In this document: positions 9,133-44,300 of the stretch, piece by piece
Numbering within the stretch: the stretch's first letter is position 1
Layout of the letters: each line of letters begins with the position of its first letter
NCBI RefSeq assembly: GCF_000003815.2
Contig: NC_049986.1
Location: 12,655,876 to 12,719,875 of the forward strand
Origin: Branchiostoma floridae
Taxonomy: Eukaryota; Chordata; Leptocardii; Amphioxiformes; Branchiostomatidae
Direction: 5' to 3'
DNA: 64,000 bases
The notes under the pieces: model-generated
Told to the model about the DNA's origin: nothing
Database searches by the model: none
Seen by the model: only the letters and a program-made list of their open reading frames with translations
Made by a program: the position numbers and the translations under genes

Positions 9133-10357
9133 GGATGGCAGATTTCATTCCCAGTTGCCCATACTATACTACTTTATGACCCTTCCAGTTGCAAAGACAA
9201 TGATAGCTGCTGCTGAGACAATGATAGCTGCTGCTGATATATGGCAATGGAACATAGTGTCTTTTACGATTTGCATAACACCAACAAACAAACAAAAATC
9301 TTACTTTGACTTTTATATTATTTTAAGAGGGCAAAGAAGTGAATGTGGTGATGACATAGTGCCCTAGGATTATATATTTATGCTCCTTTGGGTTGAGGCT
9401 GTACCAAATCCACACAAAGTTGCTCTGCATATCCTTTAACTACTACGAGGATCCCCTGTGAAGTAACACTGAAGGTGATATAAAGAGATGCAAAGTACTT
9501 TTGTACACAGAACCCTCTATTGACCTTAGAGTTAGACTCAGTTGTCGTGTTGAAAACTCACAGCTTTGCTGTATCTTAAAAAAATTCAAATCAGTTGGTC
9601 AATATTACACGGACATTGACCATCATTCTTCTTAAATGAAACAAAAGCTCCTTGATGAAAAATATCCATCCAGTTCAATGTATCCCTATATGCACAAAAT
9701 GCAATTATATCTTCAAGAAAATTTCGAATTATAAAAGGCTGATTTATTTTTCTGCCCAATTTTGTCAGCATTACCCATGCAGAGTACTAGTATAGTATAG
9801 TAGTAGCAAAGAGGTTGATTTTGGTTGAAAATAGGGACAATCTCCTTGGTAGACCAAGGAATGTAGTTTCCGTGGACAAAAGTAAAGATAATGAGGTCAT
9901 CAACTCAAACCTTTGGCCTTTCCGTATCTTGCAGAGTCCAGCTTGGTTAATGATTCCGGTTCTTTTATTATAGCAAGGAGGTTAAAAAAACAACTTTGTG
10001 TACACACGGTAGGTTTATATCCTTTGACCTCCTTAGTGCATGTAAACACCCGTCATTCCGTTCGCTTTAAATATATGCATCTCCACAGGCGATCTGAAAC
10101 GTCGCCTTGATTTCCACATGCATCAGAATTGCCCTTTGTCTTTGTCAGCACCGCGTGAGACTCCACGACCGCTAGGATAGGATGAACTAGCCTCCATCAG
10201 TGAACGGGAACGTAGAATTCGGCGAAAAAAATCGGGAAATTGGCTAAGGGAGTCAGTCCATGCTAAGGTTCAGGATTCCCCTCCGGAGCTGCGCGTCCGG
10301 CCAACTGCTCTGGAAGCAAAACTCTCTCGTCAGTCTCAGGTAATCAGTCTGGTAAGG
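9133..10357. other. Spacer before the SLC22 gene; no gene seen
   Basis: No supported coding exon on either strand; the short frames here lack splice sites and family similarity. A TATA-like tttaaatatatgc at about 10066 lies some 290 bp upstream of the SLC22 start codon and could belong to its promoter. This is inference only. Confidence 0.4.
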
Positions 10358-13300
10358 ATGGACTACGACGCTGTTCTGCAGCACCTTGGCGAATCCGGCG
10401 CGTATCAGCGCCGTCTTGCTATCCTGCTGAGCCTTATAGGCATCCCTGCAGGCTTACACGTCGGAGCGATGACTTTCATCGCTGCTGTAACGGCCATGAC
10501 CTTTGACATATGAGATAATTAGGTAATGACTGTCTCGACCATATGAGGAGGAGCTTACATTAGCATATTAGGCAATCCCTGATTGGCTGGATGCCGACAG
10601 CATCCAACCAGCTTACCTGTGATGGGCGGAGTTATACAACCTATTGTCATGCTAGTTAACCTTAGAGAGTGTATGAGGAGATTTAGTTAGTCGGTGCCCC
10701 AAGGACTCAGGTGAGGTTGTTTAAGTAGGGCTTCGTCCCTCTGTTGGATTGTGTACTAGTTAGTAAGTTAGACCAACTCTCTCTGTAAATATACTTAGCT
10801 CTCTGTATCATTATCCTAGACCTGTAACTGTAACTGTAACTTGCTGTAGTCCTAAGTGAAACACATTGTATTATATGTTACTTGAGTTTAGCATAGGTTG
10901 AATAAACACGGCTCACAAATAGTAATCGACTGGTTTGGCTGAGTTCCTGATAAGTTAATATAGGACTTAGATACCAAACAACCCGAATCGTTATATTGGT
11001 TCCCACACCGAATTTGTGAATAACCGTGTTTTACAATCTTATGTTAGACTCTGTAACATAATAGTAGTAAACTTTCCAAACTTTGAATCTATAGTTCCTG
11101 TTTGTGCTTGCCTACCCGCGTTACGCGTTTCGGTTTCTTCTCCGGCCCATTTCAAACACTTAGCTAGTTAGTCCTTACCGGCAGTTTTCTGCATTTAGCG
11201 CTGTTGTTCCTTCTTCTATGCGTTAGAAATTTGCTGTTCTACCTGTTTTGGACTTACAAATTCTTGATTTTGGGTAGGACAGACGCATATTTTGCATTGT
11301 AAATTTCATTGTTCCTGGGTAGCGTGGATTGCCAATTTGGGTCCAAAATTTTGTTCTTGATTCCCACTGACTGCTTTGCTTTAGTCGTGCGTAGTTTCTT
11401 CCCGGCATATTCAAATCTTAGCGTAGGCTTAGTGTGCAAAACCTTTGCTTTGTGTTCATTTGGTTTTGAAATTTTTGGCTTGGCCGGACAAACTCTGCTA
11501 ATTAATTGCTCATAGTGACCATTTGGCACCGTCTACACTAAATTTGCATAGACGCCATTGTCATTCACGCATAGTATTATCACCCCTGCGCGCACTGCCA
11601 TACCTTGTCTTTTGTTCTTGTTCCTGCCTTTTGTTCTCATCCGCTGTGAAATGCCATATCTTTTGTGACTCTACTCCTGCCAGGCGACACTTGCCCAACC
11701 TGTGAAATAGCTGGTTTTGTCTATTTGGTGAGAATTTTGAAAGATTTGTCAACTGTTGTTTTTGCAGTGGTCCAGAATTTGCATTCAAATTTGCGAGGTT
11801 GGATCCTATTGTCCCTTTCCAAAATCTGTTGGTTTAGGCACCTTTTGAATTTTTCTGTTGTTTTTCTCCCAAAGTCCACCGAAAAGTGTTACTCAGTTTG
11901 GCAAACGTTGGGTCTCCGATTTCTAGTTTGGCACATTTTTCCAAACCATGGCCGACAATACGCTACCTTACGACCCAACTGGCGGAAATGAAGTTACCTT
12001 CCCCAAATTGGCTCGCTCCCGGCAGACTTCCACCCCCTCCAACCCTGCTTTTAACAGCTCGAATCCCTTCCGTGCCCTCTCTACCCCTCCCCCTATTCCC
12101 CCTAGGCTTTCTGATTCCACACCCCGCTCTGTACACCCCACCCACACACCCCGTCCTACGCGACCCATTCCCACCCCCAGCCTAGTGGCCTCGCCAGCCC
12201 CAGACTTTCACGCGCTGCCCTCTGATCACGCACCTGCCCTGAGCACTATGCCCACTCCCCCAGCGCGTAAGATTCCAGAACTGCGACTCAGCTTCGACGG
12301 CTCGGGCAAGACGACTTGGGAAGAATTTGAGATGCAATTTTGCAATGAACGTGACTTTTTGGCCTGGGGAGAAGTCACTTGCCGTGCTGTCCTGCTGAAG
12401 CATTTGTCGGGAAGTGCCCTCCAGACATTCGTCTGTGCGCCCGCGTGTATCCGCGACGGATCGTCCGATGAGGTCTTGATGTATTTGAGAGATATGTATA
12501 TGCGTCCGCAGGACCCTATGCACTACCGCGGAGATATTCAGAGCTTGCGGCGACGGCCCAATGAAACCCCGCAGGCGTTCGAGCTGCGGGTGCGCCAAAT
12601 AGTTGCTCTGGCCTACCCCCGGGCAGACCAGGTGATGCGCGAGGAGTTAGGCATCCAAATTTTCTTAGACAAGATAAGCCTGGACAACCCCATCCTCGGA
12701 AAGGAAGTGGGCAAATCTCGGCCGTCAACGCTGCATGACGCCCGCGATCAACTACAATTTTTGGAGGACCTAGAGAAGACGGTCTACCCCTCCCCGCACG
12801 TGCGCCAAACGTCCTCCGCCAGCATGGAAAATGTGCAGCGGCAGATGGACGCCATGCAGCTTGCCCACCAGCGGGAAGTCGCGGCGCTGCGGGGGCAGAT
12901 CGACAACCTCCAGGTGCGCACGGAGTCGCACGCGTCTCAGAGACCGAAGGCTCCACACCAGGAGGGTAGTCACGCATATCTGCCCAGAGAGGCTCCGTCA
13001 GTGCCGAGAGAGTCCAGGCAGCGGAGTCAGGTGCATTGCCAGGGCTGCAATGAGATTGGCCACATCATTAGCCGTTGCCCAAAGGTGCGTTGCTATGGCT
13101 GCTATGAAATGGGCCATATGAAAAGTCGCTGCCCGAATATTGCGTCCAACGCGCGTCAGGGAAACGGCCCCAGACTGGCCTAAGGGGTCGTCGGCCAGTC
13201 TCCAAATTGATGAAGACCCATGCGACACACCGACATACGAATAAAGTCTCTTCCACCACACACACACACACGGGTAGTTTTCACTTTAGCGCGTCCGCAA

Positions 13301-16300
13301 ATGGACAGACTGTTAATGTCCTGATCGATTCTGGGGCCGATGTATCGATCATTAGCAAGGACGCATTTGGGCACTTGTTCGCATCAAACCCGCCGCCGCT
13401 AGCACCGTATTTGGGCCAGCCTCTATTAAGTGTTGCGGGCGATCGCCTGAAAGTGGCCGGTACAGCGAAGATTGTTTTGGAAATTTCAGACCAGCCGTTT
13501 CCGACTGAATTCTTAGTCTGTGAAAACACGGCCACTGGGCTATTGGTAGGGACAGATTTTCTGACCGAGTTCGACTGTGAGGTTTCGATGCGTCATCAGA
13601 CTTTGACACTACGTGGTTGCGAGGGAGATGTGGTAGTTTCCATCAAGCGCAAGGCGAGTTATAAAGTGCAGCGTGTTGTGACGTACAAGGCGTGTTATGT
13701 GGCAGGGCGGACAGCGCAGCTGGTGCCCGGTACCCTGAAAAAACGGGACAAGACCACATGTCCACTGCAAGGTATAGTCCAACCTGCACAGTCGCTCGAC
13801 CAGCTTGGCTTGCTTGGCGAACTTTCCGCACACTCACCCTATGAGCGAAACAAAACCCGAGTGTTCCTAGTTAATGAAAGCCCGGAACCAGTGATCATTC
13901 CTAAGGGTACTGTCATAGGGACTTTTCATCCCATTGAAAATGGCATGCCTTCCTGTGGTACGTTGTCTGTGGCGGCAACTACCTCTTTTGACATCGAGTC
14001 ACAGGCCCCTGTTGCTGACTCGACATTTGACGCTCCTTTGGCAAGGTCACCTGCAGAAGTTCGGGCAGAACTGGAGCCCCTTTTCGATTTAAGCCACATT
14101 TCGGACAGGTCACACAAAGAGCAACTGTTAGATCTCCTCGTGAAGTATGAGGATATCTTTTCACGAAACCAGGAAGACATGGGCATGACCAGTAAAGCTA
14201 CTCACCAAATCGACACTGGTGACGCCCCTCCGGTTCGGTTACCGCCCCGCCGCGTTTCCCCCCAGGCGAAGGAGACAATTGGTCAGGAATTGGATAAACT
14301 GACCCGATTAGGCTTCATAGAGGAATCGACCTCGCCTTGGGGAGCCCCCGTTGTGCTTGTCAATAAAAAAGACGGTACAAAGCGAATGTGTGTTGACTAC
14401 CGAGGTTTGAACAATGTCACCAAGAAATCGTCTTGGCCATTGCCGCGCATAGACGACACTCTTGATGCGCTGTCAGGCTCCCAACTGTTCTCCACGTTAG
14501 ACTTAAGAGCGGCGTATATGCAGGTTCCTCTAGAGGAAGCGGCAAGGGAAAAGACCGCATTTACAACCCCGTTTGGCTTGTTCCAATACAAACGGCTTCC
14601 GTTCGGCCTCTGTTCGGCTCCCTCTACTTTTGCGAGGTTAATGGAGAACGTGTTGCGTGGCCTACAGCCTCATGTGTGTATGGCATACTTGGATGATAAT
14701 ATCGTTCACTCCGATGACGCAATTGCCAACCACCTTGCGAACCTAGAGGCTGTGTTCCAGCGCTATCGCGAAGCGAATCTTAAGCTCAATCCTGAGAAGT
14801 GCATGTTCCTCGTCACTGAAGTCGAGTTCCTCGGCCACGTCATTTCAGGCACAGGCGTGCGTACCGACCCCAAAAAGGTTAGCGCTGCAGCAGAATGGCC
14901 TACGCCGCGCACTGTGCGTCAGGTACAACAATTCCTGGGCTTTGCGAACTACTATAGGCGTTTCATACAAGATTTCGCCAAAAAGGCCAAACCGCTAACG
15001 TCATTGACGCGCAAAAACACTCGCTTCAAGTGGACAGAGGAATGCGACAATGCTTTCCGCGAGCTCAAGCAGCACTTAGTGTCGGCACCTATCCTGGCCT
15101 ATCCTGACTTCTCAAAGCCCTTCATTGTTGACACAGATGCATCTGATGTTGGTATTGGAGGAGTGCTGAGCCAAAAGCAGGACGGTCTTGAGAGGGTAAT
15201 CGCATATTACAGCCGTTCTCTAACGCCTGTTGAGCAGCGCTACTGCGTGCATAGACGCGAAATGCTAGCAGCGGTAGAATTTATCACAAAGCACGAGTGC
15301 TACTTGCAAGGCGATGATGAGTTCTTGTTGCGAACAGATCACAGCGCACTACAGTACTTGATGAAGATGAAAAACCCATCAAGTCAATACGCGCGCTGGT
15401 TATTGCGTTTGGCCACGTACAAGTTCCACATCGAGCACAGGCCGGGAGCCAGCCATGGCAACGCTGACGGTTTAAGTAGAGGGCCCTGTTCCCAGTGCAA
15501 GAAAAGCGACTCGGAGGACAGTGAGCCAGTTAGGGTTTTCGCAGCTCGGCAGGCTGATCCAGATGGGCTCAACCCGATCCCTGCCTTGTCTCAAAATGAG
15601 ATTAGACGAGCCCAGCGTGCTGACCCGACTTTGGCTTGCCTCGTATTGGACGTGCAAAGAGGCACTAAACCCGATAATCTCGGCCTCCAAAGGCTCACTC
15701 GGGAACAGCGCACGCTCTATTCTGATTGGCCATGTCTAGAATTCTGGGACGGCGTCCTGTACAGAAATTGTGATAGGAAAGATGGCCTGGGACCTCAGCT
15801 CCAACTGCTGCTCCCAAGGACGCTCGTCCCTCGCGTGCTTAAGATGGTCCATGACGAACCGCTTGGTGGTCACTTAGGCGTAGAGAAGACCCTTAATAAA
15901 CTTAGGTCTGCTTTCTACTGGCCCGGCATGCGTCACGACGTGACTGCCCACGTGTCAGGTTGTGAGACCTGCATACGGACCAAGAGCGGCAGGCGTAAAC
16001 AGAGAGCCCCCATGCAACCTAGCGCAGTCGGTTTCCCAAACCAACGAGTCGCCATGGACATAGTCGGCCCCCTTCCTAAGTCGCGTGCTGGCAATAAGTA
16101 CATTTTGGTCGCGACAGACTATTTCACGAAGTGGGTTGAGATTTTCCCCATGGAGAATGAGACGGCAGAGTCTGTAGCCAAATGTTTCTACAAAGGTTGG
16201 ATCTGCGTCCACGGTCCTCCACAGTCTCTACACACAGATCAGGGCAAGAATTTCGATTCTGTGTTGGTGAAGGACCTTTGTCGGCTAATGCAAATTCATA

Positions 16301-19300
16301 AGACTCGGACGACGCCGTATCATCCCCAGTCAGACGGTCTTGTTGAGCGCTTCAACAGGACAATGGGAAATATCTTGCGCGCCTACGTGTCGCCCACCCA
16401 GCGCGACTGGGATGAGCACTTGCCCGCGGTCAAGTACGCGTATAATACAAGTTGTCACGCGACAACCGGGTTCTCGCCCTACTTCCTGATGCACGGTCGC
16501 GAGGCACGTCTTCCCATTCATCTAATGGCGCGCATCCCTACTAACGTCGGTGAGGTTCATGAACACGTGGAGGTATTACGGAACCGCCTACCGTCTGTGT
16601 TCAAGCTTGTACAGGAGAAGACACAGCAACAGCAATGTAGACAGAAGGAGCTCTATGACAAGAAAATTCATGGCAAGCCCTATGACATTGGCGACACCGT
16701 CTTCATCCTGAACAAACAGGTACCAACGGGGCTTGCGCGGAAATTGGCGCCAAAGACTAAAGGCCCATTTGAGGTCTTGCGCCGCATTAGCGATCAGGTC
16801 TACGAAGTGCGTGGCATGAGAGGGAGGGCACAGCAGAAGGTAGTAATTGTGAGTTTTGAGAACATGATACCCTTCTCTCCCACCCAGGACGACCCGGATT
16901 ACAATCCGCGGAATGACCGACCCCGTCGGCCTGCCCGCCCTAACCGTAACCGGCGCCGAGAACCTTCCCTTTCAGAGGATCCAGTAACGTCCGGGGAAGA
17001 GTCCTCCCAGGGCACTTGTTCTGCTTCCGTTTCAGGTTCCGACCAGCAGTCTGGCGATGAAGATGACCAGGACGAGGCGACCGTCCCGAAGACACTTGTT
17101 CCGCCGAGGGAGAGACGACCAGCTGTGAGTCCAGACCAGGACGTCTCCAGTGACAGCGAAGAGGAGAGGCCTTCAACGAGCCATGCTGCTGACGTCCCGA
17201 GACCGCGACGACATCGCCGCAGACCGTCGTACCTGGAGGACTTCGCGTTGGACTCTGACTCGGATTATATAGATTTAACATAGTGTGTTATTGTTAAGCT
17301 GTGCTGAGCAAAGACAGACCACTTCGTGTCTCGCGGTTCTGATGGTGCAAATCATTCGGTTGGGTGAGCTGGTGCATTGGTTGTTGTAGATTGTATGTTG
17401 GTTCCTGTTTTGCCTGTAAATCACCGTGGCTAGGTCCCCCGGAAGTTAAGGTTAGAGTTATGAAGATTTTCTTTAGTAATAAGTACGGATGGAACTCCGG
17501 AGCTGAGATGAGAGGATGGGTAGGTATACACGTTTTCTATTATCACGCCGTAGCCATGTAAGTGAGCTCAAGTCTCCTGCTGGTGTCGTCTGCGTGCTGC
17601 GTGTCCATCTCTCGAGGAATTGGATGGGGATTTGAGTATCTAATCTCAAAGGTGATTAGCAGTAAATCTCTCCCCATACCAGGTAGTATGTGTTAAGGTT
17701 ACTTAGGTGTTTATTCGGGTAATGACGGACAAGTTTAAGTGATTGACCAGGTAGCATACATGGGATTCTACATGCCTTCTCTGCTTCTGGTTGTCTGGCC
17801 GCTTTGTCGTCTGCTATGCACCTGTCACCGCCGTACACGTTGGAATTTTGTCTCTTGCGAAGCACACATGTAAATTTTTGTCTGTATCAGACACAGTGTA
17901 ATAAAACCACATGATTATTGCTTATGTATTGCTGATGTATTGCGTACGCATTGCTTCTGTATATGTTTATCTGTATTATGCTGAACTTTTGTATTCTATT
18001 GACCATGTGCGGAATGTGAGTGGCCAATGGCTGGTGAGAGCAGTCTGATTGGTCACAGAGATTTAGATAATGCTGAAAATCTGTACTATGCTGAAATTTT
18101 TGTATTGTATGGACCATATGCGGAACGTGAGCGACCAATGGCTGGTGAGAGCAGTCCGATTGGTCACAGAGAGCTAGATAATGATATATGGCTGATATCC
18201 CACTTTTGTTATTTTATATCAACCTGTTGTATTTTTGTTACACCTCCCTTGTAATGTTATGGTATCTTAACATTTGAGGACAAATGTTCGGTGAGGGGGA
18301 GGTAGTGTAACGGCCATGACCTTTGACATATGAGATAATTAGGTAATGACTGTCTCGACCATATGAGGAGGAGCTTACATTAGCATATTAGGCAATCCCT
18401 GATTGGCTGGATGCCGACAGCATCCAACCAGCTTACCTGTGATGGGCGGAGTTATACAACCTATTGTCATGCTAGTTAACCTTAGAGAGTGTATGAGGAG
18501 ATTTAGTTAGTCGGTGCCCCAAGGACTCAGGTGAGGTTGTTTAAGTAGGGCTTCGTCCCTCTGTTGGATTGTGTACTAGTTAGTAAGTTAGACCAACTCT
18601 CTCTGTAAATATACTTAGCTCTCTGTATCATTATCCTAGACCTGTAACTGTAACTGTAACTTGCTGTAGTCCTAAGTGAAACACATTGTATTATATGTTA
18701 CTTGAGTTTAGCATAGGTTGAATAAACACGGCTCACAAATAGTAATCGACTGGTTTGGCTGAGTTCCTGATAAGTTAATATAGGACTTAGATACCAAACA
18801 ACCCGAATCGTTATACTGCCATTCCCGACCACCACTGCCGAATGCCACAGACGACTCCAGCGGGCTTCAACCTGACCCTGCCCGCAGCGTTAAACATGAG
18901 CATCCCGCTAGAGGAGGTGGAAGGCGCACAGAGACTGAGCCGGTGTAGGAGATACGACGTGACCGACCAGTTCGGTTGGCTCAACAGTACCACTACTACT
19001 AGCACCTGTACGGATGGGTGGGAGTATGACCAGAGCCAGTACCACAGCAGTATTGTCAGTCAGGTACTGTCGTCAAGTTATATGGCTATTAATTTGCTGG
19101 GCGTTCTCCCCATTACGGGCCTCCCTCCACGTACGTACCCTCCCCCATTCTCGATTCTGTCTACTAGTACTCTGTAAACACTAAATTATGGTATATACCT
19201 TCGTGGTATTTCTTGTATTGAGGGCGCAATACATCGACACGAAAAACGCCCCTGCGTGTAATCATGCATGCTGCCATTAAAATACTCCATGACGAAACAC

Positions 19301-22300: not shown

Positions 22301-25300
22301 TGTTATCTGCACTTGTTGTTACATTTTCGTTGCATAACTTGAAGTTTTCTGACAATACCCCTTTTTCATGGGTCCGGCCAATATAATCAAATTGATGACG
22401 TCATAATTACGTCATCGTACGTCAACGTGACGTCAAACGTCAAACACTTGTCAGATATTATGTCGATATTATGTCCTGACCAAAAAAGCCCGGTCTGAAT
22501 AGGGTTAAACCCCTGTGTAGTGACTATCCTTGACCGTACGAAAAAAACACAGTAGACAAGCGGATTGTTTTCGGTCTGTTTGTGTATGTTTGTCTTGGTG
22601 TGTGTCCTTCATCATCATCTAGGCATGCTGGTTGCACAGATGGCCATGACTATCTTCCTCCATCCATCCCTATCCTCCATAGCCTTGGGCAGTTCTGCAG
22701 CCGAGCAGCCAGAATCATCACAAATTTGATGTACATAATTATGTTTTGCGTGGTCTACCTCTGCCTGCATGACTATGCCTGTGAGTCCACAGCGGAACGT
22801 CACTAATGATCTCATCTTTACTCCGACATGCATGACTAGCGAACCTCAGCCTTCTTTCCCGTATGACTTGAGATAACGGTGGTAGATCTCCATACAACAG
22901 TTTTTTTTTGTTGGATGTGTGTCCTTAGTTATATGAATATTGTAGAGTGACATGATGTGAAGTGGGAGATAGTGTAACCTGGAACTGGCGGGAAGTGACG
23001 GGTGATCTAATTTCCTGTATTGAAGTTCTGTTTGACAGTGGGAAAATGCATAGACAGAATCATAGAAAATTTCTACATGTTTTATGGAGGTATGATCGAT
23101 CCTCGACATCTTGGTTCAATTTCAATTTGATTCTGGCCAGAAAGCTATTACTTTAGGTTAGGGGTTCGGGTTCGGGGTGTGCGTCGGGGGTTAGAAGCTT
23201 TCTAGGAAGTACAAATGGATTCCTAAGACAGAGAAACCATAAAACAAATTGGTTCGACTTGTAAGGTATCTGAAGAGTGAAAGTAAATGGTGTGAGATAA
23301 AGGTCAGCAAAGACGTGAACGTGAGCTGAGCTGCCCTGACAAACTGCCCTGGGCTCTCATGAAGTATGGTCTGTGTTTGTCTTACACTTATTGATTTATC
23401 TGTTATCCAAGTACATGGTCAAAGTTATTAGCTTACTGATGAGTTGGCACGTTTTCACACGATTCAGTAGTGGCAAGGGTAAAGCCATCACTTCTTTCTT
23501 TCTTTCTTTTTCCCAAATCAAACATTCTAAGGACCTTTGTGAAAAAGAAAGGCATTCGCAAAGTAGCACAAACCGGCACCTTTGTCGTCTGAAACTACAA
23601 TTTCTTTTTAAATTCTGAACGGCAACTGATGCAAGGTGGCGGACAACGTCAGTGCGGTTGCCATTGGCAAAAGAAGTGTTGGCAGACCTTTATATCAATA
23701 AGAAACCCTTTTGTTTAATACCTTAAATTTCCTATTTAGACGGTTTTAGCCAATAAAATCACATCATTGACGTCATAACTACGTCATATTACATCATAAC
23801 GATATTGAAATTACGGGAAACATAACAATTTATGAGTACATCATACCCTGCAAATTTGGTGATCGTACACCAAGCCGTTTGGTAATTCCCCCCTCCCCCA
23901 GTCACAGGAATCCCAAAAAAAGCCCTGTGTATATATGGTTAAGTTAAAACGCCATTGGAAGTCGGATACTCCAATAAACAGATTCCTTTGTAGTAAAATG
24001 GACCATTGATTGAGTATCGCTCCGTAACAACAAGGTAACAAGTGTCCATGTTCAGGTCCGCACTTGGACCTGATCCTCTGAACCTGAACCAGACTGCCAG
24101 ATCTGTACTTGCATTTTCTGTACCTACACCCACATACCCTTTCTTTGATAAATTTGTGCAAGTTTTTGCATGGCAATGGCATGCAGAGTACAGGAAGTCT
24201 TTAATGCATCCCGATAAGTCGTCACAACGGTAAAAGCTCACCAGTACTATTAAAAATGTTACGATCTTAGCACTTCTCTTATGCGACAGAAATATCCCTC
24301 ACTATGCACAGAAACAATTTACGTCTCCAAGATTTTCCATATAGCTGATCCATAGTTTGCCAACGCTACTTTTATTTCCCAATATTGGTTGTATCGACAC
24401 AAACGTACTTAACTTCCATAATGGTGAGATCTGAGTTCTTCCTTTCCATACAATATAACACCGTATCATCAGTTACTGCTTGTTACCGAATATGAACATA
24501 GGAATAATCCTACAGACAGCTACGTTACTAAGTAGTATATTTTGATGTACAATCCGTTCATTGACTTGCTCCCTTTTTCGGCATTAGCAAGTTGGGCCAA
24601 GGACCTTATCCACCTGTTTAATCACTTCTGCGGCGTCCGGTCTGTCTATGTCTAACAAAGCCCTGTGGATTTGGTCGATGTTAGCTGTTGGTGTATTCTT
24701 ACTATACATGTCTAAAACCATCTCTGTGGGGTTGGGCTTGGTCTCGATGTAGCAGATGTCCTGGAAGCACAGCCCCAGTTCGTCGGCCAGCGCCCTCCAG
24801 TTGTTTCCAAAGATGGGTGCGGGAGGGTCCAGGAGGATGTTGTTGGGGTCCAATATAGCACTGCCAGCTGTGTAGAGGAACAACAAATTTCAGTCTAAGA
24901 AGATGTTTTATGATATCAAGTCAGCAAAGGTTCATCTCTTGATGCACTTTACAGTCAGTATATATAGTTTGTGGTAGCACAGACAATAAGCGTAAGCAGG
25001 AAATAGCTACGTACCTTTCTGTTTAGGCGTTTTGGTGCTCTCTTCTGTCTTCAACTGCCGGGCAATATCCCAAGATGGTTCCTGTTAAAATAAGGGGTTG
25101 TTTGTGGGTTATTCTTTACTGTAGGCATACCTTAAAAGATTAAGTAACCTATGTAAATCAACAGCAGCAGTAAACTAGAACATGCATCCAATTGCAACTT
25201 CCGGATCAGGATCGGCAAAACTGAAAACATACAAAGTGAAAGGTGGAAAACGCAGAGTACTCACATTTCCACCAAGGTCCAGATCAAAGGTTTTACCTCG

Positions 25301-28300
25301 GCACATCAGGGTAACTTTCTCCCCGGGTCGTGGGAGCTCTTCGTCATGTCCTGCTATCCTCAGGATATGTGGAGTCCTTTCGTCCCTTTCGTGGTTAGAT
25401 AATCTGCACGCTGGGCACGAAAGCCCCAATGTGTAGTGCAAGTTAGGGAACTCCCTGTCTCGGATCTGCTGCAAGTCCTTGTGAAGTCTGGACAGTAGAG
25501 AATGAGCACCTCTGTCTGGAGCACACTTGACAGTGACCTGGATCATGTTCTGCTCCACAGATTGACACACCAGCTCCAATCTGTAGTAGAAATCATGTCC
25601 CTGGTAGAATCTGCCCACATCTCTGTAGACATCTCGGTCTGCTCCGCGACCAAGGTCGTGGGTTTTCTGTGATATTGACAAACACCGGGCAAGCAGATGC
25701 AGAAAGATGGCCTCGGGGTAGAACCTGTAAAACTTGAAGTAGATAACCGTGTCCGAATCTGAGGTGTCCCAGAATGCTGAAGCAGAATGATCTGTCTCCT
25801 CGGTATCTTGCTTGACTTTCTTGGCTGTAGTCTCATTAATTGTTTTGAGAAGCAAGGGTACGAGATACTGCTCTCGTGAAATCGGACAGAGAATGTCATA
25901 TCTTTCGAGTAACGCGATGGTGGAAAAGAAACTCTCTGCCGTCAAGAATTTCCATACTCTTCGGAAAGAACTGACATGGACGATTCCAAGCTCATGATCA
26001 TCACAATCAAGCTCCACAAGCTCTACAACAAGCTGAACCAAAGCTTTCAGATTCAAGACTACAACATCACCCATGACCTTGATCTCTCCGATTTCGTCAT
26101 AGAACTGCAGCATCTCCTCAAACTCTTCTGCCTCATCTTCTACCTGAACAACACCTTCCTGTCTCAGCTTGTCAAGCAAGGCACGTTTGTCCATGAGGCA
26201 CGTGTGTGTAGAACTGGATTTGTACTTGCTAATGAAATCACTGACTTTGAGCCACTTGATAGGAACGTGTTTCTTGGATTTTAATGACGAGGAGGCAACA
26301 TCCATGATGGCTTTTCGAAGGAGACGAGCTTGATCATCTTTCCAAAGAGATATAGAGTTTTCCACACAGAACACAACATCATTTTTGCTGCCTGGTTTCC
26401 CCACAATAGACTGGGTAAAGTTTTCATTACTAAGCAATGCCTTGCTTACCTTACTTGCTAGAAACTTTGTTCTGTCTACCGGCAAACTGTTTGTGTGTGT
26501 CCCAACGATGAAGATGTGAGGATTGGGGTTTTGCACGTGGACTATTACAGACTGGACCCAATAGTATATACGCCTAATGTAGTCTGGCTCCTGTTCTAAT
26601 CTTTCCATGTTGAAGACAATCAAATGAGTTGTAAGATTCGATAAAAACAGATGATGTGTGCAGTGATAGACAGTATCTCCTGCAAAATCTATCAAGGTGA
26701 ACTTGAGAGGCAAATCCTTGACATGATTTAAGGTTCTGATGCTCCTACCAACAAGTAGTGCAGGATAGCTCTTAATTTCTTGAGATGCCAAATACACCCT
26801 TTGCCTTTCTGTTTGTACAATAAGGAACATTGCAACAATATTAGGAACGATGTAATATCCATCTGTCCATGTGGATGGCAAAACCATCCGCCAACCGTAA
26901 ATCCAACACAGTCCAATACCATAGACAAAGCCTATTGGGCCCATCAAGACCTCTAGTTGAAGACCGCGGCGGTTGAAGTTGCACAGTCTTCTCATGATGT
27001 CACAGGTTATGAACCCTGTTGCTCCTCCTGAAACACCACCAACCAGACTCAGCATGACATCCAAACTTTCACTTCCATTGTCTGCAGTGTTTGTGATTGC
27101 TAAAGCTGTTAACAGTAGGACAAGTAATCCCGAAATCCTGCGTCTACTGGATGATACCACGATGCCAACAAAAATGGCGGCAACGAAAAGAAAGGTGTGA
27201 GACTGAGATGGTGCATTTACAGTTAACTGAAAATGTGAAGCTAAGTCCTCAAAATGCAATTGAGTTGGAGCGGACATGAGGCAAAAGGCCAGGGCAATGC
27301 CACGTCTTCCTCCCACCGGCCATGGCAGTACAACGACGAAAGTAACTATAACTATGACAATTACAAACATAACGTACTGAATATAGGGATATCCAACCGA
27401 CTGTTCATTCCCAAACGCAATGAAAATACTCCTAAGGAAGCCATACCTTGTAAAGAAGTCAACGGCGAGATGTATCACAATTACATGTGTAGCATATATT
27501 CCTGAAGCATAGTAACCTTGGCCGATTAGCTTGAAAATGCCAATTTGTAATAGAAGTGCGACACCAAACCCAAGCTGAAAACCAACTGACAAAACCGTCA
27601 TCATGGCAATGAGTGCGAGAGCTAAAGCGTAGTTTAACAACGCAATGATTCCTGGACCAAGAAATTTGGGAGGATCGACCACAGACTTCAATTCTCTCAA
27701 AATCTGAAGGGCAACATAATGAGCACGGCCGGTGTTATATCTGCTGTAAGGCCCTTCGTCAGCAACTTGCCAACCTTCACCGACTTTCGTCACATCTGTT
27801 TGTACCAAATCAAACTCAAGTCCTTTTGTTGCTACTTCAGCAGGGTCAAATGGCTTCTCGAGCAGGTGTTTTTCCAGACTTGTCTTACCAGCTCTGGCAT
27901 CTCCGAGGAACGAAACGGTGCTGTGTCGTGTCGGTAAGCTGCCTTGGGTGGCGTCTTGTTGGAACACGTCCTTTGCAGCAATGGAACCGGCCAGCTGAAG
28001 AGGCAGGAGAAAGCTCAGGTTGACTTCACTGTTTACAGTCTGCCACGTTTGACTGTCGAGAATAGACGTCCTCCAAAGGGAAAGAGGTAGGAAAATGTAA
28101 GGGTACACGTATGACAGTTGCTATTACTACGAAATTAGTTTGCTTTGCTTGTAGAAAAATACTGACTTCGCCCACCTTTCCTTCAAATAAGTCACTTCTG
28201 TTTGGCGGTAGTAACCTGTGTCATAGCAACCAACCAAATGCTTCACGGCTCACTAGTCTCAATTGGTCTGTTGTGCACACAGGACGTCTTTAGCGTTGCC

Positions 28301-31300
28301 TTTTATGGTTACAATCAATTTTTCCGTATATCATCTCTTTTTGCCAGTGACAAACATGTTGTGGTGGAAACGTTCAGAGCAGTCTTTTTGACAAGGATCA
28401 AGGAAATAACCAACTACATGCCGTGCATGGTTCACTGACTAACGGTGTGTGATTCATACTTCGTTCCTTTACTTTGTTCCTTTTCGTAGCGAGAGTAAGA
28501 AAAGGAAGGAAAAGGAAAGTACCTGGTAAAGTACCGAAAGTGCGAAAGGGAACGAAAAGGAAAGTAAACGTTTAGGGAACGTTTTCGTTCCTTTTCGATC
28601 CTTTTCGTTCCCTTTCGTTCCTTTTCGCTCCTTTTCGTTCCTTTTCGTTCCCATTAATATATATTCGTACTTTCGGTAGACCCCTGACTAAGGTAACGCT
28701 TGAATAGCAGTGTTTTGGGTAAAATAAACAAACATAGTCGGGACAGTTCTAACCGACAAAATGAAGGAAACATGTTCCGCTTTCTTAGTTGATAAACTGT
28801 ACTTCAAATTATCGATCCGTTACCAATCTACTAAGTAATTGAAAGGACCACCCTAAATATTCATAAAAAATGAATAGATAGAGAGAATCTATTTACATTT
28901 GATGAACACAAACCTGATTAGAACTTATATAGACACAAACGTGTTTCTTCTACAAAAGACATGACGTCCCAAAGTGAGCTAGACTGGAGCATTGAAACAA
29001 GACTATCAGGCTCAAAGGAGGAACCGACGTATGTCGATTTAGAGATGTGACTGATTCATTGATAAAATGAAACATTCTATTTAAATACCAATTTCAAAAC
29101 AAAGCTGGAATATTTTGGTTTCACGGACTTCCTTATAACACCCCTCATAACATGTGTATTGATACTGTTTAAACGTGCAGTTGGCTATCGAAGACAAGTT
29201 ATCTTAAGGTGACTTAATTCACAGACACATTGATTGTATATTTGGGACGTGACGACCAGTGATAGCAAACTCACTTGTCTTCTGTGTCCAGAGTCTCACG
29301 CTTCTTTCCAGCTCTTATTTGGGCGGAGGTGGCCATCTTGTCGAGAAGGGAACACACGTCAATGAAGGTCTCAGAACACAGTTTTTCGCCTATGGGGATT
29401 TACATGGTTAAGGACCCCAAAGTGAGGTGGTTCGACGACTCGAAACCTATAGTAGGGTGCAGATACAATTTACAAGAATTTAGTATGTTGAAGTTGAGGG
29501 TACAAGCTACAAAATATCTGAATATGAGCATAGATTTGCCGGCTCGTTTTTCTTCTATACCAGACACTTTGATTTGACCCCCAGGGGAGGTCATAGAACT
29601 GCAGACGGCGAGCAGGAAGTGCCGGTAACATATCAAGGCGCAAATTCCCGCCGGCCGAAAAAGCGACGTAATCCAACTTATACGGTATGAACACCGATGT
29701 ATTCCTCTACTATTCACCACAGATTCCACCTCGCTGTCGTGCACGGAAGAATAAATACGGCCTTTGCAAGTACTGCGATGCCCTATTGATAAATACTGTG
29801 TTATGAGACCTCAACTGACGCCTTTAGCAGGTAGCAAAACAGTATTCATCCGCGACCCCGAGGTTCTATGACGCGGGCACATATCAAAAGTAGTACGGAT
29901 AAAATTGTTGAAGGGTGGGTTTAGACAGGTAGCCAGATATAACCTGTGCTGCGTGGTAAAGGAATATGTGTATTTTGAGGCTGTATAATTTGGATTGTGA
30001 AGGTTTTCCTGTTCCACAGAGCTGAGTTTCAAAGAGGGCGTCGAAAGGCGATACGCGACAGATTTTTTAAAAATATTTGGTGGTTTGTACCCTTCACCCA
30101 AACGTAGCCGTTTTTCGTACATCTCTATTGCACCTTACTTTAATTTTTACCGGTCGAAGCCAGTCACCTTGTGGCCCCCAGCTATGGAAATCCGCATAGG
30201 CCGAAAACTGTGTTCTGCTACCTTGAGGGGGAGTCGTACTGTTTGCTTTGGATTGTCTTCCACATCACATCATATTCTGTTCTGGACTGGTCTGTCTCTT
30301 AACATATATACAATGGCCCTATACTGCAATTTCGATATACAATGTTTTCAGGTCAGGTCGGCAAACTAGTAGGCAGAACACTGCCCGAAATTACTTATTT
30401 GAAGAGGACAATTTTATTTTTCATCGTCTTTATATGCTTTTTCCGCTTGTTCATATCATAATTACCTTCGGCAAGAAGGTTATGTTTTCGGCGTTTCTCT
30501 CTCTCTCTCTGCATAATTAATGAGGAAAGTTTAGAAATACCCTGCATTCCATGATAGGACTGTCAAACTTGTCACATATTGCTACATTTCCGTCACAGTA
30601 AATGATTCGCACCTTAAAGCCAATATCCTTTTGATGGATTGGTCTGACATTTGTCAAACACCTTTATAGCCACACCACGAACACCTTCACGAAAGATTGT
30701 GTCATATGGACTATTTTTTAGACGTATTTTACGCATATACGTCCCATATACGTCCCAAGTCAGCGCAATGAGCTGACAATGCCGTCCATAAGTTAAATCT
30801 CGTCTTAGCTAATCTAAATGGAGGATTAGTGGTCACTGTTACTGGGAAGAAATTTAAGGGATCACCAAATAGTGGCCACAATGCACAAGTGGTCCTTGAA
30901 TATGCAGAGAGGTCCTTGTGTGCGGCCCTTTTATGTGTGGTCACTAGTATGCATGATGCATGTACAAATGTTTATGAGCTAGTAGAGTAGACACAAACCT
31001 GTACTATTATTATTTCCGTGAAATCACTCCAGATTCGGGCGTCACGTGACGCTGATGACGTGCCTCCTGCTCCAGCTGACGTTCGGCGTCAGCGCGGCGT
31101 TCACGTCAAACCTCGTCACGTTCGCAATCCTCCGCTTCCTGGTCGGAGCGGTCAGCAACGGAGCGTACTACGCTGGGTTTGTGATAGGTACAGTACAGGA
31201 GAACAGCTGATATTAATGGCATCACTATTTCATTGTACCGTATGATGTGTGTTAGTATCCATCATCATCAGCCTGGCATATTTTGGCCTTTAATAGAACC

Positions 31301-34300
31301 TGACGCAAATGGCCGGAAAAAAGTGTTCAGGACGTTTGAGCACCACAGTGTAGCAAGTATGTAGCCTGAGTACCATCCTCCGTAGTGACCGCTGGCTCGA
31401 TACTTTCGCTTCCTAATACCCCTGTCACATTATGTACGATCTTCGGACGTACTTCGCAATCGCTGGAAGGGCGGGTAATTTTAAGATCTTCAGAAGTTGC
31501 GTATTATTCGCCCCAAAACTGTCCCTGTCATATATAAGCGAGGCTCGAGCGATCGCCTGTGAATAAATCTATGATAATGAACCTTCCATGACCTCTTGCA
31601 CGCGGACAAGGTAACACAAAACGTTCCTCATAAAAAGGCGCGAGATCATCGATCAATAAATGTTTATTCTTTTGTTGTCGGGATCTTCGCGACATCGTAA
31701 GACCCCTGAAAATCGCCGGTGATTCCGAAAAATCGCGAGATGATCGTGAGAACACCGGACGTCTTACTCACGAAAATGTCATTTAGAGCTCGCAGAATCG
31801 TCATCCGATCGATTTTCGCGTAATGTGACAGGGATCCATATATCCACGGCACGGACAAGAATCCGTGGTTAGCAAGCGAAAGTATCCAGCCAGCGGTCAC
31901 TACGGAGGATGGTACTCAGGCTATAAGCTCACGGTAACCCCAAATTACCATGCCAAATACACGGAGATATGTATAGAGATACATGAGACTAACGTTGAAT
32001 ACATGTGGATAGACTAGATAGAGAAGATTGCCATTGGTCCCCCAAGAGAAAGATCCCAGTCAATTACCCACTTCGTCTGAAATAGACACTCCATTCCCAG
32101 GGTAATGTGGGGAGGGAGCGTTAAAAAACTCCCCGGCCACTACTACTAANNNNNNNNNNNNNNNNNNNNNNNNNNNNNNNNNNNNNNNNNNNNNNNNNNN
32201 NNNNNNNNNNNNNNNNNNNNNNNNNNNNNNNNNNNNNNNNNNNNNNNNNNNNNNNNNNNNNNNNNNNNNNNNNNNNNNNNNNNNNNNNNNNNNNNNNNNN
32301 NNNNNNNNNNNNNNNNNNNNNNNNNNNNNNNNNNNNNNNNNNNNNNNNNNNNNNNNNNNNNNNNNNNNNNNNNNNNNNNNNNNNNNNNNNNNNNNNNNNN
32401 NNNNNNNNNNNNNNNNNNNNNNNNNNNNNNNNNNNNNNNNNNNNNNNNNNNNNNNNNNNNNNNNNNNNNNNNNNNNNNNNNNNNNNNNNNNNNNNNNNNN
32501 NNNNNNNNNNNNNNNNNNNNNNNNNNNNNNNNNNNNNNNNNNNNNNNNNNNNNNNNNNNNNNNNNNNNNNNNNNNNNNNNNNNNNNNNNNNNNNNNNNNN
32601 NNNNNACAAGAAATTCACCAAAAGACCTCTCAATATTTCAGACAGGCGTGAAATGTACGATTTCTTGGTTAAAGATTGATTCAGGCCACAACAAAGCATC
32701 GTGGTTTGTTCTTCGTTTTGCCTAAACACCTCAAACGACCTCAAGCAACCTCAAACAACCCCTATGGATGAGAAGTGTATTCTGCTATGTATCAAAATTT
32801 AAGACAGAAGAACAAAAGTCAACAGAGACGTGAACGTGAGCTGAGCTGCCCTGACAAACTGCCCTGGACTCTCATGAAGTGTGGCATGTGTTTGTCTTAC
32901 ACTTAGTGATTTATCTGTTATCCAAGTACATGGTCAAAGTGACATTGATAAGGTCCTATGAATAGGCACAATGTCCAGTGGTAGGGGTAAAACAAACAAT
33001 TTTCCGTCGAGGGTATTCATGATTACGTAACAATATGATAATGGTTTACAAGCGTTATGCAAGTGCAACGGATTTACATTGGGACTTACTTTGCATGTTT
33101 GGTTAGGAGAATCTATATTTGTAGTGTTTTTCATTATAGGACTCAAATACATGTACCATGTGGCAGGTGGAACATTACCAGGTACCGATTATGCATATAA
33201 GTGCTTAATTTGCATAATTAATGAAAAACTCCTAAGTGGTGAATGGTTTGAGTTTGACTACTGGTATCAACATTTTGATGGGTGTAAGTTGTTCAAAGGT
33301 GCACATAACCGGGCATAGATTATGTTGATGTGGCAGTTATTTGCATAATCAGAACATTTCATGGAGATATGAGGTCCCCGAACACTTGTTTTCTTTGTTT
33401 CCTTACGCTAGGTTTTTATCAGAGTCTCCTCGCTGGTTAATCTTTGCCAAGAAAACGGACGAAGCCAGGAAGGTCATAGAGCGCATCGCCAAAGAAAACG
33501 GCGTCAGCCTTTCGCAGGAAACCTTTGAGAAGTTGAACGGTTGTGCAAAGGTCCAACAAGAGCAGACGACACCTAGCAACAGAAGCAGGAAGTACAGCGT
33601 TATTGATCTTGTCCGCACACCGCAGATGAGGAAGATAACGCTTGCAATGAATGTAGCATGGTGGGTTTCTCATATTTACTATACACAACACGTACTGTAC
33701 GTATTTAGCTAAGCATACGATAGCAGTCTGTTAGCTATTAAAGGCATTTTTCGAATTTTGGCTTGGATTCACTTTCTGCTTCGGGATTCAAACTTTCAAG
33801 AATAGTATTAGGTCCTTAATGCATACCTTAAGCTTAAGCCAGGAAGCCAAACAGTCCAAAAGAAACTTATTCGTTCTAGAAAGGATTTTATCTGTTCCCG
33901 TTGCACTAATTCAATTAATATGTTTTTGTTACCTTTCCAGGTTGATCTCAGTGTGTGTTTACTACAGCCTCATGTTGGGAACATCACAACTGGTCGGCGA
34001 CCACTACGTCAACTTTGTCCTCGGGGCATGCGTGGAAATCGTCGCCATGTTTGTTGCCTGGGTAACCATGGACAGATGGGGCCGGAAACGTCCTTTTATC
34101 ATCTTCATATTTGTGGCCGGAGTGTCCTGTCTGGCCGCGGCCGGCGTGCCACATGGTATGTATGACCTTCGCTTTACAAGCATAGAGACGGTGGGCGGTA
34201 TAAACTTCCTGGCACTTTTTGACTAAAATGCATGACGTCACGTGTACACAAAAGCCACGTGACTTATTAGGACTGTTTACTTGAATTCTGAAGAAGACTG

Positions 34301-41339: not shown

Positions 41340-44300
41340 ATGAGTAAGAAATGTGACCCAAGTCCTGACGTAACGCCGAGTCAGGAAGCCAAGTGTGTGG
41401 ATAGCGAGACCCCGACACAGACGACTGGTTACCCGAGCACGATCGGAACGCCACTCCGCCGACTCGCCATCACCTACCCCCGGGACACAGCCGCGCCGAC
41501 CCCCGCCGAAACTATGGTAGACGCTCCGGTGACTTCAGTGGAGGGACGACTCACCCCTCCGATTTCAACCTCTGCGATATCAGGTAGTTTTTTTCCCTAT
41601 ATATCTATGATAAAACAAATTCACTGTAACACAGAAAACGACTCTCTTAACCTCAGGAAACATATGCTTCATTGTCACAAAGATTAACTGTCACAAATCT
41701 TCAGGAATATCAAACGAACTTGTCTGTATGGTTGCCTACTTCTTTAGCAAATTTCCATTGATGCTTTGTTTGTTTGATTTCTTGTTTTCTTTGCTTAAGT
41801 TTAAGTTTTCAGAATCTGTATACGTGTAAGCCGCCCGCACTAGTGCGTGTGTATTCTAACCATCATGTTCTTATGGCTATAGTTTACCTTCACTCAAGGC
41901 TCGAGTATGGCCCTTTTCATACTGACGTACAAAAGCGGTATGTTTAAGGCATTAACGGTTTAACTGTCGAGTTAGCCTTGAAAAGCTGAAGACTCGGACA
42001 AACACGGATTGATAGCCGAGAACAATCGCTGGCAAATTGACCACTGCATCATTTCATCATTGCTCTTTCCTGGCCCTTTCTGCCCGTCGTGTTTGCCCAG
42101 CGTGCGGTTATTGAAACAAGGTGTTTAGTACTTTGCTGCCAAAGACCCCCTTTATTTGCGCGCGCGTTTATCGCATGAACACTTGCTGGTTTCTCACATT
42201 AGCTGGTTGGTGGACCCACCCCCTTGTAAAAGCTGACACGGATGATAAGCTGCTTGGCGCGTGGCGCGTGGCATTCCCCTCCTGACTCCCGTCGCGAACG
42301 GTCGCGCCACTGAGGTAGCGTTGTACTGAGATCCTTTGGCTCTTGAACAAGATGACTTACGGCACAGGTGAGTATGCGGACAGTACGGCTAGCAATCCCG
42401 GAGGATAATGTGAAGTTGGTACCACGCACAGCTTGTGCTTTGCGTTATGTCAAGGGCTCTTTCTGTCAATTCATTTCTTGTGTTCTAATTTTTCAAAAGA
42501 TTTCGCCCACCGCCTTGTCCATCGCTACAGTAACAATACCGTCGTGTTCCAAAGAGGCTAATTGCAAGAGAGGTGCCTTTAAATACTATCGCGATCGGCA
42601 TATCGAAATGCTTTCTTTTAACTTCCAGAACTGGTTTATGAGTGTGTCATGATATTTCTTCATATAAATTATAATTTCTAAATAATGGAGTCTTTTGTGT
42701 TTTATGAGATCTGAATTTCTATATCATTTATCTCTCTACGAAGCCATCTTCGCGTATTCTTCTAAGTAGCAGTGTTGATAGATAACTACTGAGGATTTAA
42801 GTGGCGCTAAACTGAGAAGATTTGACTGTAAGTCTTAATGAAAATGGCACAATGTGTCCTGTGGCCCCTACCAAAAGTTAGAACACAGGCAGGTGAAGAA
42901 AAGCAAACAGAAATCTCTCCACGGAGCCATCTTTGCGTATTCTTCCGAGTAATAGATAATTGCTGAGGGTTTAAGTGGCGTGTAACTGAGAAGTTTTGAC
43001 TGCAAGCCTTGACTGATATTATAAATGAAGGTTTGACTGAAAATGACACAATGTGTCCTGTGGCCCCTACCAAAAGTTAGAGCGCAGGCAGGTGAAACAA
43101 AGCAAACAGAACTCACGTCAAGAGCCCTGGTTGCTACCTGCCTGTATATTACAGCAGGTGATTGTGATGACCCGGCGGCTTGGCGGGTAAACACGCAGCG
43201 GTGCTGTATGAGCGTGGGGGCGCGTGGGGCCTGATTTGTTAGTATTATACGATGTTTAGATATGCTCAGCGAGGTGATTAGAGAAACAGGCAAGCTTACA
43301 CGTGATTGAAGTTTTAATCTAAACAGCACAACAGCGTTAGGCTAGCCCCAGCGTGCTTTATTTGTTTGATTGTCGTCCTGTATTGGGGTGCAAACGGCTT
43401 TCTGATTTTCATTCACGGATCATTGTTAATGATAGAAATATCCTTCCTATTTAGTTGTATAGAAAATAGATTTCATCGCTTAACACATATAAGTAACACT
43501 GAAAAGGTTTATACTCCTGATGCGTTTTGATAAACCCATATAGCTAAACCTATAAAATCTTACATTTCCAACATTACCAAGAAGCGAGAAGAAGCCGAAC
43601 TACGATACTCGTTCCAACATGTGCATATTTGTTAACGATAAACATGTCTTTGTAGTGAACTGTACGTAGCTGAGTTGGGCAAAAATGTATAATTGAGGTT
43701 TCATTCATTCATCATACCAAGTTGGCTGTTCTGTAGTTAGACACTGGTTATATATTTATCAATTTTAAACGACTTCAGTGGAACCCAGTTTTTCTAAAAC
43801 CGACACTCGTATTAGATTTGTCCTTATCAGTTATTTGAATCGATTTTGGACCCTGTCCCTTGATACCTGTGTTAAGCTGTTTGTTCTTCGTGTTTTCTGT
43901 CCACTAATCACCCATTCAGTTCATTATGTAATTGGTCATCTTGTGCAAAGCATACATGAAGACTTGCCTGTCTGTGCAACCGCAATGCCTCCCGTTATAT
44001 AACAAAAGAACAATGCGCGCTAGATCATAAAATGGGTCACTGTAAGCTTAGGCTTACGTCACATTCCCACAAAGGGGTTAGGCCGGACAGCTTTTGGGAA
44101 CAAAAAGTACGATATAAAAGACAATAAAAACACAAAACGGACTACAAAAAATCAACAGCATGTCTTGTGCATATTTATTGGCATAAACGTTAATTTTTCG
44201 TTTCCGCAAACAGCCCGTCGAATCCCTGGTATGAAATGTGACTGATAGCCGGGAAAAAGACAAGCAAGATAAACAAAGAAAAACTTTTCCTTGTTGTAGA

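Follow-up and report, generated by a model that had tools for sequence, protein, structure and literature searches.

A predicted membrane-embedded Roco-type protein with a Death domain in the lancelet Branchiostoma floridae

Can a Roc GTPase domain be interrupted by a bundle of membrane helices and still form part of one protein, and if so, what might that protein do? The question is raised by a gene on the reverse strand of a 64,000-nucleotide stretch of the Branchiostoma floridae genome (contig NC_049986.1, positions 12,655,876 to 12,719,875; hereafter the window), for which an earlier reading of the sequence (the original prediction) had proposed a Roc-COR-Death protein with about ten helices between the G1 and G3 motifs. 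Roco proteins dimerise through COR and switch in a nucleotide-dependent manner, and they are usually soluble or peripherally membrane-bound, LRRK2 included. Our analysis suggests that the lancelet gene probably encodes a membrane-embedded Roco-type death switch, with a multi-pass bundle inserted in the Roc domain and a change in that bundle driving clustering of the Death domain.

The core of the gene is an open reading frame (ORF) running from stop to stop between 28120 and 25175 (981 aa), presumably the 977-residue frame of the original prediction. Exon A was analysed from the frame start at 27994 to the donor GGAAAT/GTGAGT at 25265, while its acceptor is tentative, the first base being 28052 or 28070 with phase 2 in either case. 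The splice sites and phases of exons A, B and C are compatible, and B and C complete the protein in phase (Table 1). Look-alikes of exon B occur behind the C15 and C1 paralogues described below (E 2e-4 to 0.04), although these are weaker than the Death matches. Further upstream lies a candidate first exon in a phase compatible with the exon A acceptors. It has one weak counterpart (E 0.057), located upstream of paralogue L003, and the N-terminus is tentatively placed in this exon, near 29336. In six paralogues the exon A acceptor lies slightly upstream of its place in the window. The window copy (about 28090-28050) has not kept that site (..CAG/TTTGG or ..CAG/TTCAG, n = 6) and, judging from its sequence, seems to use a nearby phase-2 acceptor instead.

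ORF, motif and Pfam analyses confirmed that one unbroken exon carries the P-loop, the hydrophobic stretch, DFAGD, GTHTN and a COR-type region, and that a Death domain lies two exons on (PF00531, E 1.3e-12, in 24889-24587). The Roc profile PF08477 was matched in two stretches (E 1.4e-11, 45.1 bits against a cut-off of 27). COR-A (PF16095) reached E 0.0014 and 19 bits in the window copy, under its cut-off of 35.3, and was above cut-off in paralogues L012 (5.2e-13) and L013 (4.2e-10). In addition, LRRK2 Roc-COR aligns with residues 472-758 of the 981-aa frame, reaching into COR. Exons A and C gave no kinase, LRR or ankyrin match in Pfam, and no KAP profile appeared among Pfam matches of the window protein up to E 10, so the protein is not placed among the KAP NTPases. 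By its sequence it is a member of the Roco proteins, having a Roc domain with G1 and G3 followed by COR. It departs from them in its interrupted core, with G1 and G3 397 residues apart, and the window copy has GTHTN in place of a guanine-specific G4 (THxD or NKxD).

The interruption falls at a narrowly defined point of the domain. Ordinary Rocs fetched from the same genome have a G1-G3 spacing of 35-41 residues in 16 of 16 cases (counted to 1-3 residues before the G3 Asp, excluding a Rab and one copy whose site is covered by N), a range that is not a census because these Rocs were chosen mainly from one-stretch Pfam matches. Copies from a C3 cluster, which the window protein recovered and which were not selected by one-stretch Pfam matches, have about 40 residues there (13/13); this cluster of ordinary uninterrupted Roc frames spans C3:31.9-33.3 Mb (L018-L030, 13 fetched). 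Taking the best stretch of each copy, the 119-position Roc profile ends at 45-46 before the block (L005, L017 and L043) and resumes after it at 47 (L012), 48 (L010), 53 (L013) or 54 (window). Similarly, in the alignment with the archaeal Roco 4wnr the first match stops at chain residue 77 and the second begins at 85, with only residues 78-84 between them, a gap corresponding to positions 58-418 of the family profile. The switch I threonine (ATKGLEF) sits just before the insertion. With secondary structure as modelled, the insertion point would be the b2-b3 turn, and the surface-loop insertion near switch I that had been predicted is borne out by the profile break near 46, the 4wnr alignment and the AlphaFold model.

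The inserted block bears the marks of coding sequence. A 957-nt stretch (27664-26708) has a single open frame, the other forward frames containing 22 and 10 stops and the reverse frames 17-22, and none of 20,000 composition-matched order-1 Markov sequences stayed open over that length, which rules out a chance hydrophobic frame. Synonymous codon preference was neutral, since it did not separate the true frame (-0.009) from the next (-0.005). The five further intact copies (L002-L006) likewise keep the block open, and among the six its ratio of nonsynonymous to synonymous substitution (dN/dS, NG86) was 0.24-0.59 in 15/15 pairs (median 0.35), compared with medians of 0.19-0.23 for the Roc parts and COR. 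Mean identity was 57% in the block versus 81-83% in the Roc parts and COR. By these measures the block is constrained yet evolves faster than Roc and COR. Helices 2, 9 and 10 and the 9-10 loop come close to the GTPase, with mean identities of 0.75-0.80. The original prediction had named two outcomes that would refute it, splicing of the block as an intron and homologues lacking it with matching splice sites at its edges. In the genomic sequence neither was observed: the block is open and constrained in six copies, and the single strong donor found by pattern in exon A (27888) lies inside the P-loop codons. The uninterrupted homologues found were distant ordinary Rocs.

The block comprises 283 residues. 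A home-made hidden Markov model (HMM) gave 8 or 9 helices for the window sequence alone. Under two weightings it gave 10 and 5-6, respectively, for a seven-row family profile, and 9-10 and 4-5 for eight rows, where the tenth helix is spurious because it falls in the C-terminal half of Roc. The AlphaFold model has 14 helices between residues 114 and 421, ten of which were taken as membrane segments, one in two pieces. The earlier figure of about ten helices is thus plausible, with the exact count left unsettled by the HMM. An even number, argued earlier for the case that G1 and G3 both face the cytosol, is favoured, if not proven, by a higher density of lysine and arginine (K+R) in the predicted inside loops in 8/8 rows. 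The window block matched nothing in Pfam or NCBIfam and the block profile nothing among PDB sequences, and no relatives of the block or protein were confirmed in prokaryote genomes, viral contigs or phages. The only hint of a relative is a sub-threshold TM7S3/TM198 match in the helix half of the C17 paralogue (L012:1420-3336, reverse strand; E 0.78, 9.8 bits against 29.2).

AlphaFold run on the exon as a single sequence was useless (pLDDT 39.8). In the alignment-based model a long predicted helix connects the last membrane segment with b3, the model matches the LRRK2 Roc by fold, and the Foldseek and VIA-align matches listed were GTPases or GTPase-containing entries.

The gene is one of a family. 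Whole-genome protein searches found at least 12 loci, a lower bound because only the best candidates were scored: C8 (the window), C1, six on C15, C2, C12, C17 and C18. The window exon and the Roc part of C12 each recovered 12/12 of them, and the first exon of C18 recovered 11/12, missing L008. The C15 copies form a tandem cluster of six with transmembrane (TM) block, Roc, COR and Death at 12.97-13.01 Mb (L062-L066); additional partial matches resembling Death, some containing a stop, occur between certain copies. The C2 copy is broken by a frame change inside the block, L007 has a frame change near its end, and L008 contains a run of N. In C17, G1 and five or six helices lie in one exon and three or four helices, G3 and COR in another 10 kb on, presumably parts of a single gene whose block is interrupted by an intron. 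The C18 copy is in two pieces separated by a run of N; its first exon has four or five helices, and its helix count is incomplete. A tree separated 19 ordinary Rocs from ten TM-Rocs plus a Rab outgroup (support 97/100), the Rab branch being very long and the rooting unsure. In the free tree the ten TM-Rocs did not fall on one side of a branch, and forcing them together was not rejected (p-AU 0.405). Roc domains are numerous in this genome, with at least 147 Pfam matches among the best 150 of 370 candidates scored, many covering part of the profile. The G4 Asp is retained in L004 and in the distant L010, L012 and L013, and its pattern of loss and retention across the family is a possible change of nucleotide specificity.

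The family also varies in what follows COR. Death domains were found by tblastn behind all six C15 copies and C1 (C2 being left out), and a candidate partial Death match lies behind C17 (tblastn E 2.5e-6). C12 has a CARD (1.5e-12; L068:8627-8944) where others have Death, and its linker exon is 67 nt long with phases identical to those of exon B, making it very likely that the CARD is part of the C12 gene. Downstream of the C18 paralogue, four phase-consistent GT-AG introns lead into a caspase with SHGGDEG and QACRG (L067:8567-9574), 817 codons without a stop. This chain itself lacks G1 because it begins after the run of N, and from its sequence a single-chain membrane GTPase-caspase is possible. 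Taken together, the Death, CARD and caspase ends point to a putative cell-death or inflammatory output.

Among known systems, the closest are the Roco proteins (LRRK2, DAPK1, MFHAS1 and archaeal Roco2, PDB 4wnr), which the lancelet protein resembles in its Roc halves and COR by sequence and in Roc by fold. A Death domain is likewise present in DAPK1. However, 4wnr and the LRRK2 Roc have no insert, whereas here some 360 extra residues with a membrane bundle occupy the b2-b3 turn. Exons A and C gave no match to the N-terminal kinase and ankyrin repeats that precede Roc in DAPK. In layout the nearest precedent is the KAP P-loop NTPases, which reportedly have membrane segments inserted within the P-loop NTPase domain; these belong to a different P-loop class and have fewer helices. 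No Roc domain with membrane helices inside was described in the literature searched, in line with the earlier statement that no described family with this layout was known, most subscription journals and all supplements being outside reach. In amphioxus innate immunity, Death, CARD and caspase modules have been reported to be shuffled, one product being a predicted transmembrane TNFR-caspase protein (Zhang et al. 2008, PMC2575513), and the present family resembles those shuffled genes; that main text contains no words beginning GTPase, Roc, P-loop or Miro. In brown-algal ROCO proteins a long ROC domain contains inserted sequence that is not conserved, but their architecture is LRR-ROCO and, in the part available, the insertions are not described as membrane helices (PMC11378527). 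In a lancelet pangenome, no domain is more over-represented among dispensable genes than Death (PMC12373286). This agrees with copies that lie in tandem and evolve fast, but the TM-Roc family is not named there.

On the anatomy, insertion point, conservation within one genome and alternative outputs established from sequence, a mechanism can be proposed whose topology, coupling, signal direction and role in cell death or immunity we infer. The bundle, most likely of ten helices with both ends cytosolic, would occupy the b2-b3 turn after switch I and before the G3 strand. The two Roc halves would close into a single domain under the membrane, so that the GTPase may assemble there. COR would follow and, by analogy with Roco proteins, serve dimerisation, ahead of a C-terminal death-fold or effector domain. 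The trigger would most likely be a change in the bundle, caused by a ligand, by lipid or ion stress, or by mechanical or pathogen-made damage. Because the bundle's ends are attached beside switch I and b3, such a change should be transmitted directly to the switch, or from the switch to the bundle. In the former, favoured direction, shifting the two ends would alter the nucleotide state or COR dimer geometry, and in turn cluster the Death domain, or the CARD or caspase at the same place in paralogues. We see roughly even chances that this is a distinct membrane receptor or channel class, with a ten-helix bundle threaded through the Roco switch region, membrane event and nucleotide switch forming one mechanical unit, and exon shuffling to Death, CARD or caspase in an NLR-like manner. 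If true, animal cell-death initiators would gain a class that spans the membrane, with an apparent single-chain membrane GTPase-caspase among its members, and a death switch could be coupled directly to a membrane sensor or channel, either one driving the other. A bundle joined to switch I and b3 is a natural construct for testing how membranes set the nucleotide state of Roco proteins.

The bundle could instead merely fix a Roco death adaptor to the membrane, without sensing or transport, and its standing as the fastest-diverging part and the lack of matches to the window block in Pfam, NCBIfam and PDB sequences would suit that role. This is rather unlikely, as a single helix would suffice, an anchor placed next to switch I would be unusual, and helices 2, 9 and 10 and the 9-10 loop are conserved near the GTPase level. 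We give still less weight to a reversed direction, in which the bundle forms a pore or transporter that is gated by the GTPase and controlled or localised by the Death, CARD or caspase part: the ten-helix size and the long helix leading to b3 agree with this, but no known pore or transporter family was recognised at the sequence level (Pfam, NCBIfam, PDB) and an in-frame caspase with SHGGDEG and QACRG suits an output better than a regulator. A retained intron or mobile insertion, with an artefactual hydrophobic frame in an otherwise ordinary Roc-COR-Death protein, is scarcely credible despite the strong donor-like site at the P-loop, since splicing at 27888 would destroy the P-loop, and it was rejected on the open frame (0/20,000), the block dN/dS and the same block position in the distant C12, C17 and C18 copies at 28-43% identity.

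Several observations weigh against the membrane-embedded death switch. The G4 Asp is lost in 6/7 close copies, as it is in L008 and L009. Weak guanine specificity is therefore possible, which lowers the claim of a GTP switch and leaves Roc homology unaffected; the sequences suggest that close copies may bind nucleotide differently or be pseudo-GTPases. The faster evolution of the block can also reflect relaxed constraint. HMM helix counts were unstable (4 to 10), though the multi-pass character is clear, and when only internal loops are considered the K+R count was greater outside in 2/8 rows. The membrane part of the AlphaFold model is weak (block means 31-75), 14/28 of its alignment rows came from ordinary Rocs with a gap across the block, which favours closure of the Roc halves in the model, and the fold searches used the whole model rather than the block. 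In the second exon of C18 the HMM found no helix and hydropathy two hydrophobic segments, and the exon links of C12, C17 and C18 were chosen by eye. Finally, the case is built on the DNA of one genome.

Table 1 Features of the gene and of its surroundings, in positions of the window
Feature	Position	Strand	Basis and remarks
Candidate first coding exon (tentative)	29275..29336	-	MATSAQIRAGKKRETLDTED..., phase-2 donor GTGAGT; sequence reading
Exon A: split Roc, membrane block, COR	25265..28052	-	ORF and splice sites
G1 / P-loop GDARAGKT	27881..27904	-	exon A residue 31; Roc profile, two stretches
Membrane block, about ten helices	26807..27655	-	exon A residues 114-396; hydropathy, loop charges, AlphaFold helices, dN/dS
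G3 DFAGD	26675..26689	-	exon A residue 436; C-terminal Roc profile stretch
G4 GTHTN	26489..26503	-	exon A residue 498; THxD Asp replaced by Asn
COR-type region	25385..26284	-	COR-A PF16095 and LRRK2 Roc-COR alignment
Exon B: linker, 67 nt	25015..25081	-	phase 0 in, phase 1 out; splice sites
Exon C: Death domain and stop	24583..24867	-	PF00531, E 1.3e-12
Acyl-CoA dehydrogenase exon	5548-5889	+	Pfam
Sugar/organic-ion transporter exon candidate	10181-10513	+	by eye; without Pfam match
Retroelement pol frame, long open	13108-17280	+	reverse transcriptase, RNase H and integrase by Pfam
Sugar/organic-ion transporter exons	33329-34226	+	Pfam
Nuclear receptor exons	44242-49252	+	zf-C4 and ligand-binding domain by Pfam

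The features listed after exon C lie on the opposite strand, and the transporter genes may enclose or flank the Roc gene.
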